NCBI RefSeq assembly: GCF_009604455.1
Contig: NZ_WEGL01000002.1
Location: 310,001 to 374,000, forward strand
Direction of reading: 5' to 3'
Source: Streptomyces sp. RB17
Lineage (GTDB): Bacteria; Actinomycetota; Actinomycetes; Streptomycetales; Streptomycetaceae
Length of the DNA: 64,000 nucleotides
The notes beneath the pieces are model-generated. The model searched no databases and was not told where the DNA came from. It saw nothing but the letters and a program-made list of their open reading frames with translations. The translations under genes and the position numbers were made by a program. Positions 7,310 to 12,792 of the stretch are shown here, one piece after another; the stretch's first letter is position 1, and each line of letters starts with the position of its first letter.

Positions 7310-9976
7310 GTGACCACGCGGCAGAAGCAGACGAGGCGATCGGCCGTCCCGCACGTCGATCCCCTGGGAGAGCCGTTTCTGCAGACCCGGTTCGCCCTGC
7401 CGGCCACGCCGGCCACGTTCCTGCGCCGCCCGCGGCTCGCCGCACACCTCGACCAGGCCTTCGAGACCCCTCTGACGATGGTCAACGGCTCGGCCGGCGC
7501 GGGAAAGACGCTGCTGGTCGCGGACTGGGCCGCCCAGCTCGGACAACCGGTCGCCTGGTTCACGGACGAGGCGGGGGACCAGGGCTGCGGAGTCTTCTGG
7601 GCCTATGTGCTCCAGGCCCTGCGGGCAGCCGGGGTGCCGCTCCCGGCCGGCCTCGGCTGCCCCGGCGAGGCGCATCGCGTGGAGCACAAGCTGCTGGCCC
7701 GGCTCGCCGACGAACTGAGCGGGCGGGAGCGGCCCGTCGTCCTCGTACTGGACGAGTTCGACCGGGTGACCTCCGCACGGATCGCGGAACAGCTGGAGTT
7801 CGTGCTGCACCATGCCGGGCAGGGGCTGCGCCTGGTCCTCGTCACCCGCACCGAGCCGCTGCTGCCGCTGCACCGCTACCGGGCGGCCGGGGCCATGACC
7901 GAGATCCGGAACGCCGAACTGGCCTTCACCGTCGACGAGGCCGCCGCGCTCCTGGCCCTGCACGGGCTGCGGCTTCCCGCGGCGGCCACCCGAGCCCTGG
8001 TGGAGCGCACCGGAGGCTGGGCCGCCGGGCTGCGCCTGTGCGCCCTGGCCGCCCGGCAGAGCCCGGACCCTGAGACGTATCTGAAGGACTTCGAGGCGGG
8101 CCGCAGCTCGATCGCCGACTTCCTGCTGGCGGAGGTGCTGAAACGGCAGCCGGCCCGCACGCAGGACCTCCTGCTGCGCGTCAGCGTCGTGGAGCGGTTC
8201 ACCCCGGCACTGGTGACGGAGCTGACCGGGCGCGGCGGCGCCGAGCAGGCCCTCACCGCACTGCACGGCCAGAACGCGTTCGTGGAGGACCTCGGGCACT
8301 CGTGGTACCGCCTGCACCCGCTGTTCGGTGAGATCCTCCGGGTCCATCTCAGGGTCCGCTCGCCGGGGCTGGAGACCGAACTCCACCGGCGCGCCGCGCA
8401 GTGGCTGCGCGGCTCCGGCGCCCTGCCCGAGGCACTGGCGCACGGCGCCGCCGCCGGCGACTGGGACTTCACCGCCCAGGCCCTCGTCGACGACCTGGCG
8501 ATCGGCCGGCTCTTCACCGGCCTGCGCGCCAGCGACCTCGCCGAGCTGTTCTCCCGTATGGGACCCGAGGCGACGACCGCGGCGGCGGACCTCGTGCGCG
8601 CCGCGTGCGACCTGTCCGGGTACGACGTGGAACACGGCCTGGTCCATCTGCGCCGCGCCGAGGAGCGCCTCGCCTCGGAGCCGGACCCCGCGGGCCGGCT
8701 GAGCTGTGCGCTGCTGCAGTCCCTGGCGGCCCGGCTGACCGGCTCGCCCGGCATGGCCGAGCAGGCCGTGGCGACGGCCGAGAACCTGCGGGGCGAGGTC
8801 TCCGCCCGGCTGCTGGAGAAGCACCCCGAGCTCACCGCCCTGCTGCTGACCCACCTGGGTTCGGCCCGGCTGTGGGCCGGGCGCTTCGACGACGCGCGCG
8901 CCGCCCTGTCCGAGGTGGCCGGATGCCCCAGCGGCGTCTCCACGGCGCTGCCCCGCGAGGACTCCCTCGGACAGCTGGCGCTGATCGACTACCTCGAAGG
9001 CCGGCTGTGCCGGGCGGAGCGCAGGGCACGGGCGGCCCTGCGGGAGGCGGAGAAGTACGGCCTCGGCTGCCCCCGGTCCTGCGGCTCGGGCCTCGGGCAG
9101 CTGGTACTTGCGGCCGTGGCCGTCGATCGCGGCGAACTGGGCCAGGCCCAGGCCCTGTTGGACGAGGTGGCGGACTCGGGAGCCCCGGGCGATCCGGTCA
9201 CGGCCGTCGGCCGGTCGCTCGCGACGGCACGGCTGCTGCTGGCGCGGGGTGAGCCACGGGCCGCCGCGGCGGCGGCCGACCTCGACGTGCCGGCCCTGGT
9301 GACCTCCCCCTGGGCACAGGCGCAGACGGCGCTGGTCGCCTCCGCGGCCCATCTGGCCGAGGGCCGCCCGGACAGCGCCTTGAAGGTGCTCGACGACGTC
9401 TCCTGCGACGGTGAGCCGGTGTGCGCGGCGGAGCTGGCCTGGGCCCGGTTCGCTGCGGGCGACCACGAGGCGGCGATGGACCTGCTCGACCACATGCGGA
9501 CGCAGGGCCGCACCGGGCCGAGAGCGACTGTCCGGGCCGCGCTGGTGCGCGCCGAGGCCGCTCCGGAGTACGACGTCGCCACCGCGCGCAGACTCCTCGC
9601 CCAAGCCCTGCGGGAGGCCCGGCGCGAGCGGTTGCGGCGCCCCTTCCTCGAAGCCGGACCGCGGATCCGGCACCTGCTGGACACACCGCCGCTGCAAGGC
9701 CTGGCCGCGGGCTGGCTCACGCCGGGCGAGCCGGCCTCGCCTGGCGGTCCGGGCGCGGCCGAGGACCCCTCGTCCCCGGTCGTCGAGGAGCTGAGCGGAC
9801 GCGAACGCGAGGTCGTCGGCAGGCTGGCCGACCTGATGTCCACGGAGGAGATCGCCGCCGACCTGTACGTCTCGGTCAACACGGTGAAGACCCACCTCAA
9901 GAGCGCCTACCGGAAGCTGGGCGTGAACGGCCGCGCCGAGGCGGTGCGCCGGGCGCGCGAGCACGGGCTGATCTGA
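7310..9976 (+). CDS. large ATPase LuxR-family transcriptional regulator (MalT/LAL type)
   Basis: An 888-aa protein from GTG 7310; an in-frame GTG at 7268 is an alternative. Domains in order: STAND NTPase with Walker A GSAGAGKT (residues 60-67) and Walker B LVLDEFD; a long helical TPR-like middle (about 340-800); and a C-terminal LuxR helix-turn-helix of about 60 residues (LSGREREVVGRLADLMSTEE, then AADLYVSVNTVKTHLKSAYR). Such regulators couple ATP and ligand binding to activation of nearby genes. Four copies of one palindrome lie just downstream of or beyond this gene, so it is the first candidate regulator of that cluster. The ligand is unknown. Confidence 0.93.
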   Translation: MTTRQKQTRRSAVPHVDPLGEPFLQTRFALPATPATFLRRPRLAAHLDQAFETPLTMVNGSAGAGKTLLVADWAAQLGQPVAWFTDEAGDQGCGVFWAYVLQALRAAGVPLPAGLGCPGEAHRVEHKLLARLADELSGRERPVVLVLDEFDRVTSARIAEQLEFVLHHAGQGLRLVLVTRTEPLLPLHRYRAAGAMTEIRNAELAFTVDEAAALLALHGLRLPAAATRALVERTGGWAAGLRLCALAARQSPDPETYLKDFEAGRSSIADFLLAEVLKRQPARTQDLLLRVSVVERFTPALVTELTGRGGAEQALTALHGQNAFVEDLGHSWYRLHPLFGEILRVHLRVRSPGLETELHRRAAQWLRGSGALPEALAHGAAAGDWDFTAQALVDDLAIGRLFTGLRASDLAELFSRMGPEATTAAADLVRAACDLSGYDVEHGLVHLRRAEERLASEPDPAGRLSCALLQSLAARLTGSPGMAEQAVATAENLRGEVSARLLEKHPELTALLLTHLGSARLWAGRFDDARAALSEVAGCPSGVSTALPREDSLGQLALIDYLEGRLCRAERRARAALREAEKYGLGCPRSCGSGLGQLVLAAVAVDRGELGQAQALLDEVADSGAPGDPVTAVGRSLATARLLLARGEPRAAAAAADLDVPALVTSPWAQAQTALVASAAHLAEGRPDSALKVLDDVSCDGEPVCAAELAWARFAAGDHEAAMDLLDHMRTQGRTGPRATVRAALVRAEAAPEYDVATARRLLAQALREARRERLRRPFLEAGPRIRHLLDTPPLQGLAAGWLTPGEPASPGGPGAAEDPSSPVVEELSGREREVVGRLADLMSTEEIAADLYVSVNTVKTHLKSAYRKLGVNGRAEAVRRAREHGLI

Positions 9977-9992: not shown

Positions 9993-10009
9993 TCGCCCGC
10001 GACGGGTGA
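9993..10009. promoter_or_regulatory. palindromic motif copy 1 (TCGCCCG-CGA-CGGGTGA)
   Basis: Imperfect copy (one mismatch in the left arm) of the inverted repeat TCACCCG-N3-CGGGTGA, 17 bp after the LuxR gene stop codon. No intact gene starts directly after it, but the relic at 10017-10217 does. Confidence 0.5.
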
Positions 10010-10016
10010 GGCGCGC

Positions 10017-10217
10017 AGCAGAGATTTCGACGCCATCCAGGCCGGGCTGCGGCTGCTGACGGTGTCCGCCACGACGCTCGTCACCTCCCTCGGCGCCGCC
10101 CGGCTCGGCCGCACCACGGGGCCGCCCCGGGTCGTCCGGCCGGGCCTGCTGCCGCCGGCCGTGTCCATCGTCCGGCTGCTCGCCGGCATCGAACATCGAT
10201 GCTCGCGGCGTCGGTGA
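10017..10217 (+). pseudogene. unidentified coding relic
   Basis: In the frame of codon 10023-10025 the DNA reads FDAIQAGLRLLTVSATTLVT followed by a Pro/Arg-rich stretch and IVRLLAGIEHR before TGA at 10215-10217. Third positions are nearly all G or C, as in real genes here, but there is no start codon with a binding site and no family I recognise. It is probably the remnant of a lost gene. Confidence 0.35.
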
Positions 10218-10400
10218 TGATCAAAGCCGGCGGGCTGGGGAAGTTCCTCCGCTGCCGTGCGCCGGCAGCGGACCAGCCCACCTGGCCGGTCGGCGCAGCC
10301 CTGGCGCCCGGTGGCGGGCGCGGCCGCGGTCAATCCGCTGCTCGGCCCGGCGATCAACGCGTTCAAGATCGCTCCGATGCGCGGAAGCCGGGCACCCGGA

Positions 10401-10417
10401 TCACCTGTGCCGGGTGA
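10401..10417. promoter_or_regulatory. palindromic motif copy 2 (TCACCTG-TGC-CGGGTGA)
   Basis: One-mismatch copy of TCACCCG-N3-CGGGTGA, ending 70 bp before the ATG at 10487. The position suits an operator or activator site for the small gene. Confidence 0.6.
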
Positions 10418-10486
10418 GGCCGGGTGCGGCCGGGCGGAGCACGATCGCAGGCAAGACCGCAGCAGCCCGCGGCGGGAGTACGGCCC

Positions 10487-10684
10487 ATGCGCTACGAGAT
10501 CCGCGTCGACGGACACATGTCGGAGACCCTCACCAAGGCCTTCCCGGAGCTGGATCACGTGATGATGTCCGGTCAGACCGTGCTGTTCGGACCCGTCATC
10601 GACGAGGCGCACCTCTACGGGCTGCTGAACCGCTGCCAGTCGCTGGGACTTCGGGTCGTGGAGATGCGGCAGCTGCCGGAGTGA
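10487..10684 (+). CDS. small conserved-looking protein, function unknown
   Basis: A 65-aa protein: MRYEIRVDGHMSETLTKAFP, then ELDHVMMSGQTVLFGPVIDE, then AHLYGLLNRCQSLGLRVVEM. The start is chosen for the GCGGGAG site upstream. The pattern of strands and helices suggests a compact ferredoxin-like or ACT-like fold, which is inference only. One copy of the shared palindrome lies 70 bp upstream. It may be under the neighbouring LuxR regulator. Confidence 0.7.
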   Translation: MRYEIRVDGHMSETLTKAFPELDHVMMSGQTVLFGPVIDEAHLYGLLNRCQSLGLRVVEMRQLPE

Positions 10685-10717
10685 CCGCCCCTGGCCGACC
10701 GCCCCAGCGGCCGTACC

Positions 10718-10955
10718 TCACCGATCGGCCCCCACGATCCGGCCGCGAGCGGAGTGCAGCAGCAGGATCCAGCGCCGGGTGCACCCCGAGGCGAACTCCC
10801 GCAGCCTGTCCCGGCAGGCCCGCACGCACGCGCGCACCGCGTCGTCCTGCTCATTCTCCGTGAGGCCGTCGTCCCCCCGCGACGCCGCAACCGGCCGTCA
10901 GCCGCTTGACGTCCCACTCGAACGGGCCCGGGAACGTCGCCCCGCGCCACCACCC
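10718..10955 (-). pseudogene. DUF2252 gene fragment, frameshifted and truncated
   Basis: Read on the minus strand, one frame gives WWRGATFPGPFEWDVKRLTA and then GCGVAG. After a run of six G at about 10875-10882 the next frame gives DDGLTENEQDDAVRACVRAC followed by RDRLREFASG, ending at the stop at 10718-10720. PGPFEWDVKRL followed by a helix ending R..REFA is the hallmark of the middle of DUF2252 proteins (normally about 400 aa). Both ends are missing and the frame is broken, so this is a relic. Confidence 0.75.
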
Positions 10956-10968
10956 GGTCCGGGCGGAG

Positions 10969-10991
10969 GGATCACCCGCGGCGGGTGATCC
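10969..10991. promoter_or_regulatory. palindromic motif copy 3 (best copy)
   Basis: Perfect arms of 10 bp (10969-10978 and 10982-10991) around a 3-nt spacer, with core TCACCCG-CGG-CGGGTGA at 10972-10988. It ends 102 bp before the ATG of the HdeD-like gene at 11091. Confidence 0.7.
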
Positions 10992-11090
10992 GGTGCACCG
11001 GGCGCCCCGGGGACGCTGTTCGCCGGAGGGCCGTGGGACGCGTCGGCGTCAGCCCGTGCGCGGCCCGTGCCGAGTGCGCGAGGAGGAGCG

Positions 11091-11738
11091 ATGACCGAAC
11101 CGCGTGGACAGGAGTCGCGGGCCGGGCCGTCGTATCCGCCCGGCGAGGCGGCCACCGGCCCCGCACCGGCCATGACGGTGATCGCCCGCTCCTGGACCTG
11201 GATCCTGGCGTCGGCGATCGTGACGCTCGTACCGGGTGTGCTGATCCTCGTCTGGCCCGACGAGACGCTGCACGTCCTCGCCGTCGTCCTCGGCCTCTAC
11301 CTGCTGCTCGGCGGCGCGATCCGGTTCGTGACGGCGTTCGCGCGGGAGGAGCACGGAGACCGGCTGCCCGGCCTGCTGGTCGCCGTGCTGTACGTCCTGG
11401 CCGGCGTGCTCTGCCTGCGCCATCCGCTGCAGACCATCACCGCGCTGGGGCTGGTCGTCGGACTCGTGTGGCTGGTGTCCGGCGTGCTCACCCTCTACAC
11501 GGCGATCGCCGCGAAGGACCTGCCGCACCGGGGTGTCGTCCTGGGTGCCGCGCTGCTCGGCATCGTGGCCGGGGTCGCGGTGCTGGCGCTGCCCGCCGAG
11601 TCGGCGCGGGCGCTGACCCGGCTGCTCGGCCTGTGGCTCGTTCTGCTGGGCCTGGTCGAACTGGCGGTCGCCTTCGCGTGGCGGGCCGCGCTGCGCAGGA
11701 GCGGGGCCCTGCCGGGCGCACCCGGCCCCATGGACTGA
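11091..11738 (+). CDS. HdeD/DUF308-family membrane protein
   Basis: A 215-aa protein with ATG at 11091 directly after AGGAGGAG. After a 35-aa hydrophilic N-terminus come six hydrophobic helices in three pairs (for example WILASAIVTLVPGVLILVWP, LAVVLGLYLLLGGAIRFV, LGLVVGLVWLVSGVLTLY), the HdeD/DUF308 pattern. HdeD proteins are linked to acid or general stress in enteric bacteria; the role in actinobacteria is not settled. The gene is preceded by the shared palindrome and followed by similar small membrane genes. Confidence 0.88.
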   Translation: MTEPRGQESRAGPSYPPGEAATGPAPAMTVIARSWTWILASAIVTLVPGVLILVWPDETLHVLAVVLGLYLLLGGAIRFVTAFAREEHGDRLPGLLVAVLYVLAGVLCLRHPLQTITALGLVVGLVWLVSGVLTLYTAIAAKDLPHRGVVLGAALLGIVAGVAVLALPAESARALTRLLGLWLVLLGLVELAVAFAWRAALRRSGALPGAPGPMD

Positions 11739-11750
11739 CCGGGCGCACGA

Positions 11751-11767
11751 TCACCCGCCTCGGGTGA
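11751..11767. promoter_or_regulatory. palindromic motif copy 4 (TCACCCG-CCT-CGGGTGA)
   Basis: Perfect 7-bp arms around a 3-nt spacer, 12 bp after the HdeD-like stop codon and 90 bp before the ATG of the SHOCT gene at 11858. Confidence 0.65.
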
Positions 11768-11857
11768 GGACGGGCCGTTCCACCCGTGTGCACGCTGGGA
11801 ACGGCAGAGACCGGCTCGGCGAACCCCGCGAGCCGGTGCCCTGGATGGAGGAAAGAC

Positions 11858-12319
11858 ATGAGCGCGCAGACCTACCTCGCGTACGACTATCCGGTGCTGG
11901 GTGTCTTCTGGTCCATGCTGGTGTTCTTCCTGTGGATCATGTGGTTCGTCCTGCTGTTCCGGGTGGTCGTCGACATCTTCCGCGACGACGGCATGGGCGG
12001 CTGGGCCAAGGCCGCCTGGACCCTCTTCGTGATCGTGGTGCCCTTCCTGGGAGTCCTGGTCTACCTGATCGCCCGCGGCAAGGGCATGGGGGAGCGGGAG
12101 GTGGCGCAGGCGCGCGCCCAGCAGAAGGCCTTCGACTCCTACGTCCGCCAGACCGCGCAGGCCGGCACCAGCAGGGCCGACGAACTCGCCAAGCTCTCCG
12201 AGATGCGCTCGCGCGGTGACATCTCCGAGGACGAGTTCCGCAGGGCCAAGGAGCTGGTCCTCAGCGACGCCGGCCAGGCCCGGCGCTCCGAGAACGCTCA
12301 CGCCTCCTCCGGGCGCTGA
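11858..12319 (+). CDS. PLDc_N-like SHOCT-domain membrane protein
   Basis: A 153-aa protein with ATG at 11858 behind GGAGG. Two transmembrane helices (about 15-40 and 55-75) fit the PLDc_N-type membrane anchor. The C-terminus (about 108-138, ADELAKLSEMRSRGDISEDE) is a SHOCT motif. Proteins of this make-up are common in Streptomyces stress gene clusters, with no defined biochemical role. It is followed by the DUF7144 gene after 41 bp and is likely co-transcribed with it. Confidence 0.88.
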   Translation: MSAQTYLAYDYPVLGVFWSMLVFFLWIMWFVLLFRVVVDIFRDDGMGGWAKAAWTLFVIVVPFLGVLVYLIARGKGMGEREVAQARAQQKAFDSYVRQTAQAGTSRADELAKLSEMRSRGDISEDEFRRAKELVLSDAGQARRSENAHASSGR

Positions 12320-12360: not shown

Positions 12361-12792
12361 ATGACCACGACACCCCGCAGCCAGGCCCACACCCGCACCG
12401 CCAGGCAGGCGTGGGCGGGCGGTCTGACCTCCTTCGCGGGCGTCATGCTGCTGCTCGCCGGGCTGCTCGGCGTGTTCCGGGGCATCATGGCGATCGCCCA
12501 GGACAACGTCTTCGTGACGACGCCCAACTACGTCTTCAAGTTCAACCTCACCAGCTGGGGCTGGATCCATCTGGTCCTGGGCGCGCTCGCCGTGATCGTC
12601 AGCTTCGGCCTGTTCACGCCGTCGATGTGGGCACGCGTCGCCGGCGTGGGCATCGCCGGGCTGGTGATCATCGCCAACTTCCTGTCCCTGCCGTACTACC
12701 CGGTGTGGTCCGTCGTGATGATCGCGCTGTCCGGGTTCATCATCTGGGCCCTGTGCGTGGTCCAGGGCAGGGAATCCGCCGAGAGCCCGTAG
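12361..12792 (+). CDS. DUF7144 family membrane protein
   Basis: A 143-aa protein with four hydrophobic helices: TSFAGVMLLLAGLLGVFRGI, WGWIHLVLGALAVIVSFGLF, VAGVGIAGLVIIANFLSLPY and WSVVMIALSGFIIWALCVVQ. The layout and the NYVFKFNLTSWGWIHL segment match the actinobacterial DUF7144 family of unknown function. It is last in the SHOCT-DUF7144 unit and is followed by a strong terminator. Confidence 0.85.
   Translation: MTTTPRSQAHTRTARQAWAGGLTSFAGVMLLLAGLLGVFRGIMAIAQDNVFVTTPNYVFKFNLTSWGWIHLVLGALAVIVSFGLFTPSMWARVAGVGIAGLVIIANFLSLPYYPVWSVVMIALSGFIIWALCVVQGRESAESP

Follow-up and report, generated by a model that had tools for sequence, protein, structure and literature searches.

The locus lies within a 64-kb stretch of Streptomyces sp. 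RB17 DNA (the window), where four copies of the palindrome TCACCCG-N3-CGGGTGA follow a gene for a LuxR-type ATPase regulator. Its features are given below; a −10-like hexamer is one that reads xAnnnT, with its offset counted past the end of the site.

7310..9976, plus strand: LuxR-type (LAL/MalT-like) ATPase regulator, 888 aa, GTG start (Pfam AAA_22, AAA_16, TPR_19, and GerE at residues 827-882)
9993..10009, plus strand: palindrome copy 1, one mismatch, an orphan with no xAnnnT at +23/24
10020..10193, plus strand: MFS transporter gene remnant (tblastn, blastn; residues 297-354 of the 535-aa L039 protein, 69% identical)
10401..10417, plus strand: palindrome copy 2, TCACCTG-TGC-CGGGTGA, putative operator of the 65-aa gene
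10440..10445, plus strand: −10-like hexamer CACGAT, +23 from the end of copy 2
10487..10684, plus strand: gene for a 65-aa protein, the most widespread proposed target
10790..10937, minus strand: DUF2252 gene remnant, divergent (tblastn)
10972..10988, plus strand: palindrome copy 3, perfect, 10-bp arms, putative operator of the HdeD-like gene
11012..11017, plus strand: −10-like hexamer GACGCT, +24 from the end of copy 3
11091..11738, plus strand: HdeD-like (DUF308) membrane protein, 215 aa (Pfam DUF308, 1.7e-27)
11751..11767, plus strand: palindrome copy 4, perfect, putative operator of the SHOCT gene
11791..11796, plus strand: −10-like hexamer CACGCT, +24 from the end of copy 4
11858..12319, plus strand: PLDc_N and SHOCT membrane protein, 153 aa (Pfam)
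12361..12792, plus strand: DUF7144 membrane protein (Pfam, 4e-45)

Open reading frames and Pfam matches bore out the gene calls of an earlier, sequence-only reading of this DNA: the LuxR-ATPase, the 65-aa frame, the DUF308/HdeD-like protein and the PLDc_N and SHOCT protein. The SHOCT and DUF7144 genes are likely co-transcribed. A sequence scan placed all four palindromes where that reading had put them, with the same mismatches (one each at 9993 and 10401, none at 10972 and 11751) and the same 10-bp arms at 10972 (GGATCACCCG-CGG-CGGGTGATCC). Copy 1 begins 17 bp past the LuxR stop codon. The idea that the copies mark a local regulon holds for three of the four, which precede a present gene; the copy at 9993 precedes a decayed transporter gene. 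In a relative's locus, L039, both the MFS gene (MFS_1) and the DUF2252 gene are intact. Orthologues of copy 1 ahead of intact MFS genes have the hexamer at +23/24 in L044 and lack it in L039, L041 and L061. Copy 3 lies between divergent genes in some relatives.

The four copies are the only sites in the window with at most one mismatch. Allowing three mismatches gave 12 sites against a shuffle mean of 11.3, no excess, and we dropped that count as equal to chance. Across the whole genome (9.75 Mb), 11 distinct sites have at most one mismatch, four of them within this 1.8 kb, and the reversed pattern at the same stringency occurs once. Identical arms with a 2-bp spacer occur 14 times against 11 for the 3-bp spacer, and the genome-wide total was likewise set aside as evidence of enrichment. 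What exceeds chance among palindromes is the clustering and the conservation of these sites, not their total in the genome.

Comparison loci were selected by a LuxR-ATPase or 65-aa neighbour and comprised 24 named loci (those of LuxR orthologues) and 100 further loci, with three loci common to both. We counted sites with at most one mismatch for N3 and, separately, for every alternative spacer between 0 and 8. The 3-bp spacer accounted for 54 sites in the named loci (0-1 per other spacer), 178 in the further loci (0-2) and 55 in 40 loci of other genera (0-3). Position was scored as a site with at most two mismatches no more than 330 bp upstream of a gene: such a site precedes 88/111 homologues of the 65-aa gene, 76/79 SHOCT homologues and 46/50 HdeD-like homologues, and 28/89 DUF7144 homologues have a site of their own. 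The motif is therefore conserved in orthologous promoters, by spacer-3 counts and by upstream position alike, a check that the sequence-only reading had proposed.

Sites in relatives are also found away from the regulator gene. We examined 13 unlinked loci whose retrieved stretch lacked a LuxR match, from 13 genomes that carry the LuxR gene elsewhere. A 15-locus set (these 13, one LuxR locus and L070) held 24 N3 sites, one site with spacer 5 and none with the rest. Three unlinked loci (L276-L278) have 2-mismatch sites only, and in L272 no site lies ahead of the 65-aa gene. Sites that precede unlinked gene copies argue for action in trans.

The promoters share a second feature. In 168/169 filtered promoters (188/197 unfiltered), a −10-like xAnnnT hexamer begins +23 or +24 past the site, whereas the other offset pairs examined gave 0-9/169 filtered promoters. 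When every site with one mismatch or none was counted, in either direction, the hexamer stood at +23/24 in 47/54 cases in the named loci, 152/178 in the further loci and 18/23 in the unlinked loci; in other genera the either-direction count is 51/54 (39/40 in one family, 12/14 in five more). In the window, the three sites ahead of genes have offsets of +23, +24 and +24. The genome scan that the sequence-only reading had called for returned seven sites outside the cluster, and in neither direction does any of them (0/7) have the hexamer at +23/24. These seven look like background, so that, at this stringency, the regulon of this genome appears local. One of them, L008, near a SpoIIE-type phosphatase gene, was first taken as a regulon member and was rejected on the same ground; three others (L007, L009 and L010) lie inside predicted genes.

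The earlier suggestion of an activator site had been drawn from a constant distance to the start codon, put at 70, 102 and 90 bp. The measured distances are 69, 102 and 90 bp, one differing by a base pair, and the constancy is to the hexamer rather than to the ATG. The activator reading stands, because it is the distance to the −10-like hexamer that is fixed. With the hexamer taken as −12 to −7, the site would run from approximately −51 to −35, with its centre near −43, and would reach the position of the −35 element. Class II activators of the LuxR/NarL type bind at about −43. A fixed position that overlaps or adjoins the −35 element, ahead of the −10, is what marks a class II (LuxR-box-like) activator site, and such a position, relative to predicted starts, holds for 168/169 filtered promoters.

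A dimer covering −51 to −35 might also obstruct polymerase, so the LuxR-ATPase might bind these sites and repress the genes; a repressor is known among LAL proteins, SCO6993 (PMC9628970). However, the hexamer distance is equal across three unrelated gene families: contact by an activator requires this, and repression has no need of it. A C or G moreover begins the most frequent hexamers (CACGCT, GACGCT, GACGAT), an indication of a weak −10. We consider repression very unlikely.

The half-sites themselves are known. In Al-Bassam 2014 (PMC4125116), BldM, an activator from Streptomyces venezuelae, is an atypical response regulator of 203 aa with whiB and ssgR among its Group I targets, and its Group I box is TCACcCg/cGgGTGA (consensus TCACcCgnncGgGTGA) with a 2-bp spacer. 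The BldM system shares the palindrome, the half-sites TCACCCG/CGGGTGA and a GerE-type HTH with TVKTH in the recognition segment, a motif common to BldM and the 888-aa LuxR (the BldM query sequence matched in 241/246 genomes). The sequence-only reading knew of no described actinobacterial regulator with this consensus; judged against PMC4125116, that fails for the half-sites and stands for the 3-bp spacer, present in all four copies here. A BldM that tolerates a 3-bp spacer could in principle own the sites. Yet neither the 24 named loci nor the 100 further ones contain a spacer-2 site at one mismatch or fewer, against 54 and 178 sites for spacer 3. Exact N3 sites also track the LuxR-ATPase, occurring in 93/110 LuxR-positive and 26/136 LuxR-negative genomes (Fisher 5e-26); 17/110 LuxR-positive genomes have no exact site. 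A spacer-5 control palindrome showed no such association (27/110 versus 37/136, p = 0.66), and the exact N3 sites in LuxR-negative genomes are at the background level of that control (26/136 versus 37/136). A BldM Group I operator would be independent of the LuxR-ATPase, and since BldM is present in 241/246 genomes it cannot explain the site distribution. Spacer counts and genome co-occurrence led us to reject BldM as the regulator, a reading we hold to be very unlikely. The 14 genomic spacer-2 sites, six of them inside predicted genes, do not, taken alone, point to a BldM regulon.

The binder cannot be named from co-occurrence alone, and another, unlinked GerE-type regulator could have been co-inherited with the LuxR-ATPase: Streptomyces genomes encode many LuxR-type proteins, with 23 listed for S. 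coelicolor, 14 of them LAL, in excerpts of PMC3282765. Against this, palindrome type varies with the recognition segment of the adjoining LuxR protein in three paralogue classes. Regulators with KTHL adjoin the canonical type in 88/105 loci and a degenerate N3 site in 7 more, and in 10/105 the stretch ahead of the 65-aa gene has no site or its best site is unrelated; those with TVNTH adjoin TCACCGG-N3-type sites (6/6) and those with RTHT adjoin TCACCAC-N2-type sites (8/8), L262 of the RTHT type having a degenerate site only. The covariation gave a Fisher value of 8e-17 (A versus C+D; rows not independent), inflated by shared ancestry because the covariation runs by clade. The same pairing is seen in further families of the class. 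Beside the 65-aa gene, other helix types showed no recognisable site in L248, L250, L253 and L264. A single recognition-helix residue (V-to-A) was also tried as the determinant of a TCGCCCG variant and failed to predict it (L046, L058, L193). With the pairing in view, an unlinked binder is highly improbable. A role of the palindromes as transcription terminators or RNA hairpins has a negligible probability: some do come after genes on the same strand, and the distal genomic match L004 resembles a terminator stem, but reading the sequence reveals no T-run after the sites in the window, and the sites have a promoter position with a −10-like hexamer, lie between divergent genes in relatives and keep a spacer fixed at 3.

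The palindrome is thus a promoter element, conserved in Streptomyces and in several further actinobacterial families, that the adjoining 888-aa LuxR-type ATPase likely binds as a dimer, and from which it would activate the downstream genes, because the 3-bp spacing is strict, the same genes lie downstream, the distance to xAnnnT is near-invariant, presence tracks the LuxR gene and the palindrome differs with the recognition helix. Comparative data on spacing, position, geometry, LuxR linkage and covariation support the earlier proposal of a regulon with activator-like sites beside this regulator.

The regulator has an ATPase domain and a C-terminal GerE HTH, the LAL/MalT-type layout, at a length within the 800-1000 aa of that type, and its listed homologues have similar precomputed Pfam domains. 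Its recognition segment is SVNTVKTHLKSAYRKLG. Over residues 24-491 it scores 265 bits against the NCBIfam MalT equivalog cut-off of 537, and on these matches it is MalT-like in layout, not MalT itself. MadR is among its nearest GerE matches in NCBIfam; none of the papers listed by our search of the open-licence literature was on MadR. Activation by MalT requires ATP and a ligand. The MalT-like arrangement of the regulator (ATPase, TPR, GerE HTH) predicts a switch that would likewise depend on ligand and ATP, with the dimer docking on the 17-bp palindrome as its candidate binding site. Active LuxR-ATPase would raise the 65-aa protein, the HdeD-like protein, the SHOCT/PLDc_N membrane protein and possibly DUF7144; in relatives its putative targets also include the MFS transporter, the DUF2252 protein and a potassium-channel-like protein. 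From the nature of these targets, our guess at the signal is envelope or acid stress.

This would be a new regulon under a regulator of a known kind, and the 3-bp spacer is the new part; among the open-licence papers listed by our searches, none ties this 3-bp-spacer palindrome or a SHOCT/HdeD regulon to a LuxR regulator. Among GerE-type systems, OsdR/DevR likewise uses a palindromic response-regulator site in Streptomyces. Excerpts of PMC5069765 give that box the consensus AGGGCCGATCGGCCCT, whose half-site is unrelated to TCACCCG, and an OsdR/DevR operator was ruled out. LAL/MalT-type regulators resemble the 888-aa protein in size, ATPase domain, TPR and C-terminal GerE HTH. Their DNA sites differ: MalT boxes are GGA[TG]GA and SCO6993 footprints have no consensus (PMC9628970, in part), whereas here the site is a strict 17-bp palindrome with mostly membrane-protein targets. 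Two Streptomyces LAL proteins, SCO0877 and SCO7173, appear in the portion of Guerra 2012 (PMC3282765) available. By its length, 888 aa as in the window's regulator, SCO0877 looked a possible orthologue; its neighbours are different, a table in PMC6767563 placing it with genes for a hydrolase and an AAA-domain protein.

The pairing gives this LuxR-ATPase subfamily a testable code, strict enough that its targets can be listed for any genome; the natural variants of the code indicate the half-site that belongs to each recognition segment. LAL regulators are numerous in Streptomyces and, to our knowledge, most of them are without a known DNA code. Finding the BldM half-site in a second promoter set, set apart by 1 bp of spacing, makes cross-talk between development and this regulon directly testable. 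More tentatively, STAND-type LuxR ATPases across the class may possess an evolving DNA code (three segment types and three palindrome types, one with BldM half-sites shifted by 1 bp) at a constant −10 distance, each with a dedicated 65-aa ferredoxin-fold first target that feeds back as the ATPase ligand. The 65-aa family gains a context and a hypothesis. The protein matches no Pfam or NCBIfam family, and a PDB fold search with its model returned nothing at E <= 0.001, the best matches being ferredoxin-like/HMA domains at 0.0038 and above. Its predicted fold is beta-alpha-beta-beta-alpha-beta (AlphaFold2 pLDDT 91.8), and its gene is present in 106/246 genomes of the genus and 55/296 of the class.

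The sequence-only reading's proposal of a new local regulon is supported, and TCACCCG-N3-CGGGTGA is its predicted operator, probably read by a regulator of known kind. Four copies, at 9993, 10401, 10972 and 11751, lie where that reading placed them, with the mismatches and gene neighbours it described, and are the window's only sites at up to one mismatch. In the 9.75-Mb genome this tolerance gave 11 sites, 4 within the same 1.8 kb; the reversed pattern matched once. A spacer-2 version gave 14 sites, so the genome total by itself is no enrichment. Unlike that total, the clustering and the conservation, spacing and promoter data are. Searches of the open-licence literature listed no description of this regulon.

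The motif is conserved in orthologous promoters, a check the same reading had named. Across 24 loci from named records (23 from Streptomyces, 515 kb in total), fetched with the window's LuxR-ATPase, an 888-aa regulator with a GerE helix-turn-helix (HTH), 54 sites with at most one mismatch had spacer 3, against 0–1 for each other spacer from 0 to 8. A further 100 loci of the genus, picked by either LuxR-ATPase or the 65-aa protein, with distant paralogues among them, held 178 spacer-3 sites versus 0–2 per other spacer; the two sets overlap in three loci. Outside the genus, 40 loci of the same class, picked by 65-aa protein matches, gave 55 versus 0–3. The window LuxR-ATPase is 91% identical to its counterpart in a Streptomyces record. 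L063 and L064, which come from other families of the class, have N3 palindromes near DUF7144 or SHOCT homologues, and their LuxR proteins are just 31–33% identical to that of the window.

The sites share a fixed promoter geometry. Among 169 promoters of three unrelated gene families, kept after near-duplicate removal at one mismatch or fewer (SHOCT, HdeD) or 60–95 bp from the start codon (65-aa), a -10-like hexamer, xAnnnT, starts 23 or 24 bases past the site's last base in 168; other offset pairs examined gave 0–9. Unfiltered, the count is 188 of 197 (70/71, 40/41 and 78/85). Taking every site with at most one mismatch, before any gene and in either direction, the hexamer accompanies 47/54 named, 152/178 further, 51/54 other-genera (39/40 in one family, 12/14 across five more) and 18/23 unlinked sites. 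If the hexamer spans -12 to -7, the centre of the palindrome would fall near -43. LuxR/NarL-type class II activators sit near this position. The earlier argument for an activator, drawn from the distance to the ATG, pointed in the right direction, but those gaps (69, 90 and 102 bp) are a weaker guide than the hexamer distance. We propose that LuxR-ATPase binds the palindrome and activates these genes.

An unlikely alternative regulator is BldM, whose Group I consensus is TCACcCgnncGgGTGA, with spacer 2 (PMC4125116). The claim that no described regulator has this consensus therefore holds for the 3-bp spacer and fails for the half-sites, which equal those of the BldM box. BldM has a match in 241 of 246 genomes of the genus. 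Among the matches listed it is 100% identical over 203 residues, a few other genomes scoring lower, and thus appears unusually invariant for a regulator. Exact TCACCYG-N3-CGGGTGA sites, by comparison, follow LuxR-ATPase: of 110 genomes in which LuxR matched at E <= 1e-60, 93 carry one, compared with 26 of the 136 remaining genomes (Fisher 5e-26). A spacer-5 control palindrome occurs in 27/110 and 37/136 genomes (p = 0.66), which puts LuxR-negative genomes at background for N3 sites.

Distant LuxR paralogues likewise adjoin 65-aa paralogues, and the recognition segment of the HTH covaries with the palindrome. Segment TVNTH accompanies an upstream TCACCGG-N3-CCGGTGA type in 6/6 loci, and T[VL]RTHT accompanies TCACCAC-N2-GTGGTGA or a near variant in 8/8. 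Of the 105 loci with T[VI]KTHL or close, 88 have the canonical palindrome and 7 a degenerate N3 form; the other 10 have none or an unrelated one. BldM, a user of the canonical half-site, likewise has TVKTH. The first segment pattern found nothing in 27 loci; a C-terminal search then recovered TVK[TS]HL in 12 of the 14 loci from one other family, each time next to a canonical-type site. It also revealed RTHT-like segments in L266, with the TCACCAC site, and in L262, where the site is degenerate; L248, L250, L253 and L264, with other helix types, have no recognisable site. As the segment classes are clades, a Fisher value for this covariation overstates independence. All 15 loci of the two variant classes, counting L266, have the -10-like hexamer at +24. 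Variant-class promoters also carry an extra TCACC-like half-site between palindrome and hexamer, starting 8 bp past the palindrome (L112, L120, L249, L251, L259, L263, L265 and L266; L107–L111 and L255). Of the 15 loci, 10 have exact TCACC and 4 near variants; L268 has none, and the canonical-class consensus shows no such half-site.

Sites also occur away from the regulator gene. Thirteen loci carry extra 65-aa genes in stretches lacking a LuxR match, from 13 genomes with LuxR elsewhere. In nine, on contigs long or short, the 65-aa or SHOCT gene is preceded by a site of no more than one mismatch (in L272, only SHOCT is). L273 has a two-mismatch site before the 65-aa gene and a one-mismatch site before SHOCT, and L276–L278 have two-mismatch sites only. 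In six genomes (G234, G268, G125, G132, G232 and G221) the gene and LuxR share a contig yet lie >500 kb apart, which makes it a trans relation. L280 and L282 come from short contigs and could still be linked. These 13 loci, one LuxR locus and an own-genome locus (L070) together hold 24 N3 sites, 1 spacer-5 site and 0 with other spacers. The near-perfect palindrome of L070, near 5033 (C12:1031032), is flanked by genes for a SpoIIE-type phosphatase and a small membrane protein, with no -10-like hexamer at +23/24.

Candidate target genes were counted in the window and the 24 and 100 loci, taking the best homologue per locus and sites with <=2 mismatches within 330 bp upstream; in a few cases the site belongs to the preceding gene. 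Sites precede 88/111 65-aa, 76/79 SHOCT, 46/50 HdeD-like and 28/89 DUF7144 genes. In some of the 24 loci, genes for an MFS transporter, an ion-channel protein, DUF2252, SpoIIE-type phosphatases and a class-II glutamine amidotransferase also lie near a site. Six of the 24 (L051, L053, L055, L056, L058 and L062) also have a site about 135–170 bp before the LuxR match, at about 9815–9848, with one mismatch in L062 and two in the others; self-control is therefore possible there. The window has no site upstream of LuxR.

The copy at 9993, an orphan in the window, has orthologues before an intact MFS gene in L039 and L041. Gene remnants in the window are:

10020-10193, 58-residue piece of an MFS transporter gene, intact in relatives
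10790-10937, pieces of a DUF2252 gene, intact in L039 and there divergent from the HdeD-like gene

Small pieces of the gene next to MFS are also left before the second copy. The window layout is a reduced form of a longer cluster. At the four orthologous MFS-promoter sites looked at, xAnnnT lies at +24 in L044 and not in the other three; this promoter fits the geometry less well than the others.

The 65-aa protein matches no Pfam or NCBIfam family, and phmmer returned 563 homologues. Its predicted model is confident (beta-alpha-beta-beta-alpha-beta, pLDDT 91.8), and the PDB offers nothing beyond weak, ferredoxin-like matches. The unnamed family occurs in 55/296 genomes and 27/114 genera of the class. 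Because a LuxR-ATPase match so often lies in the same stretch (32 of the 40 other-genera loci), a feedback role is suggested. Its predicted operator (10401-10417 and orthologues) keeps an asymmetric mismatch in most Streptomyces loci, the left arm being TCACCTG or TCACCTC and the right often CGGGTGA, as if its affinity were tuned below that of the SHOCT site.
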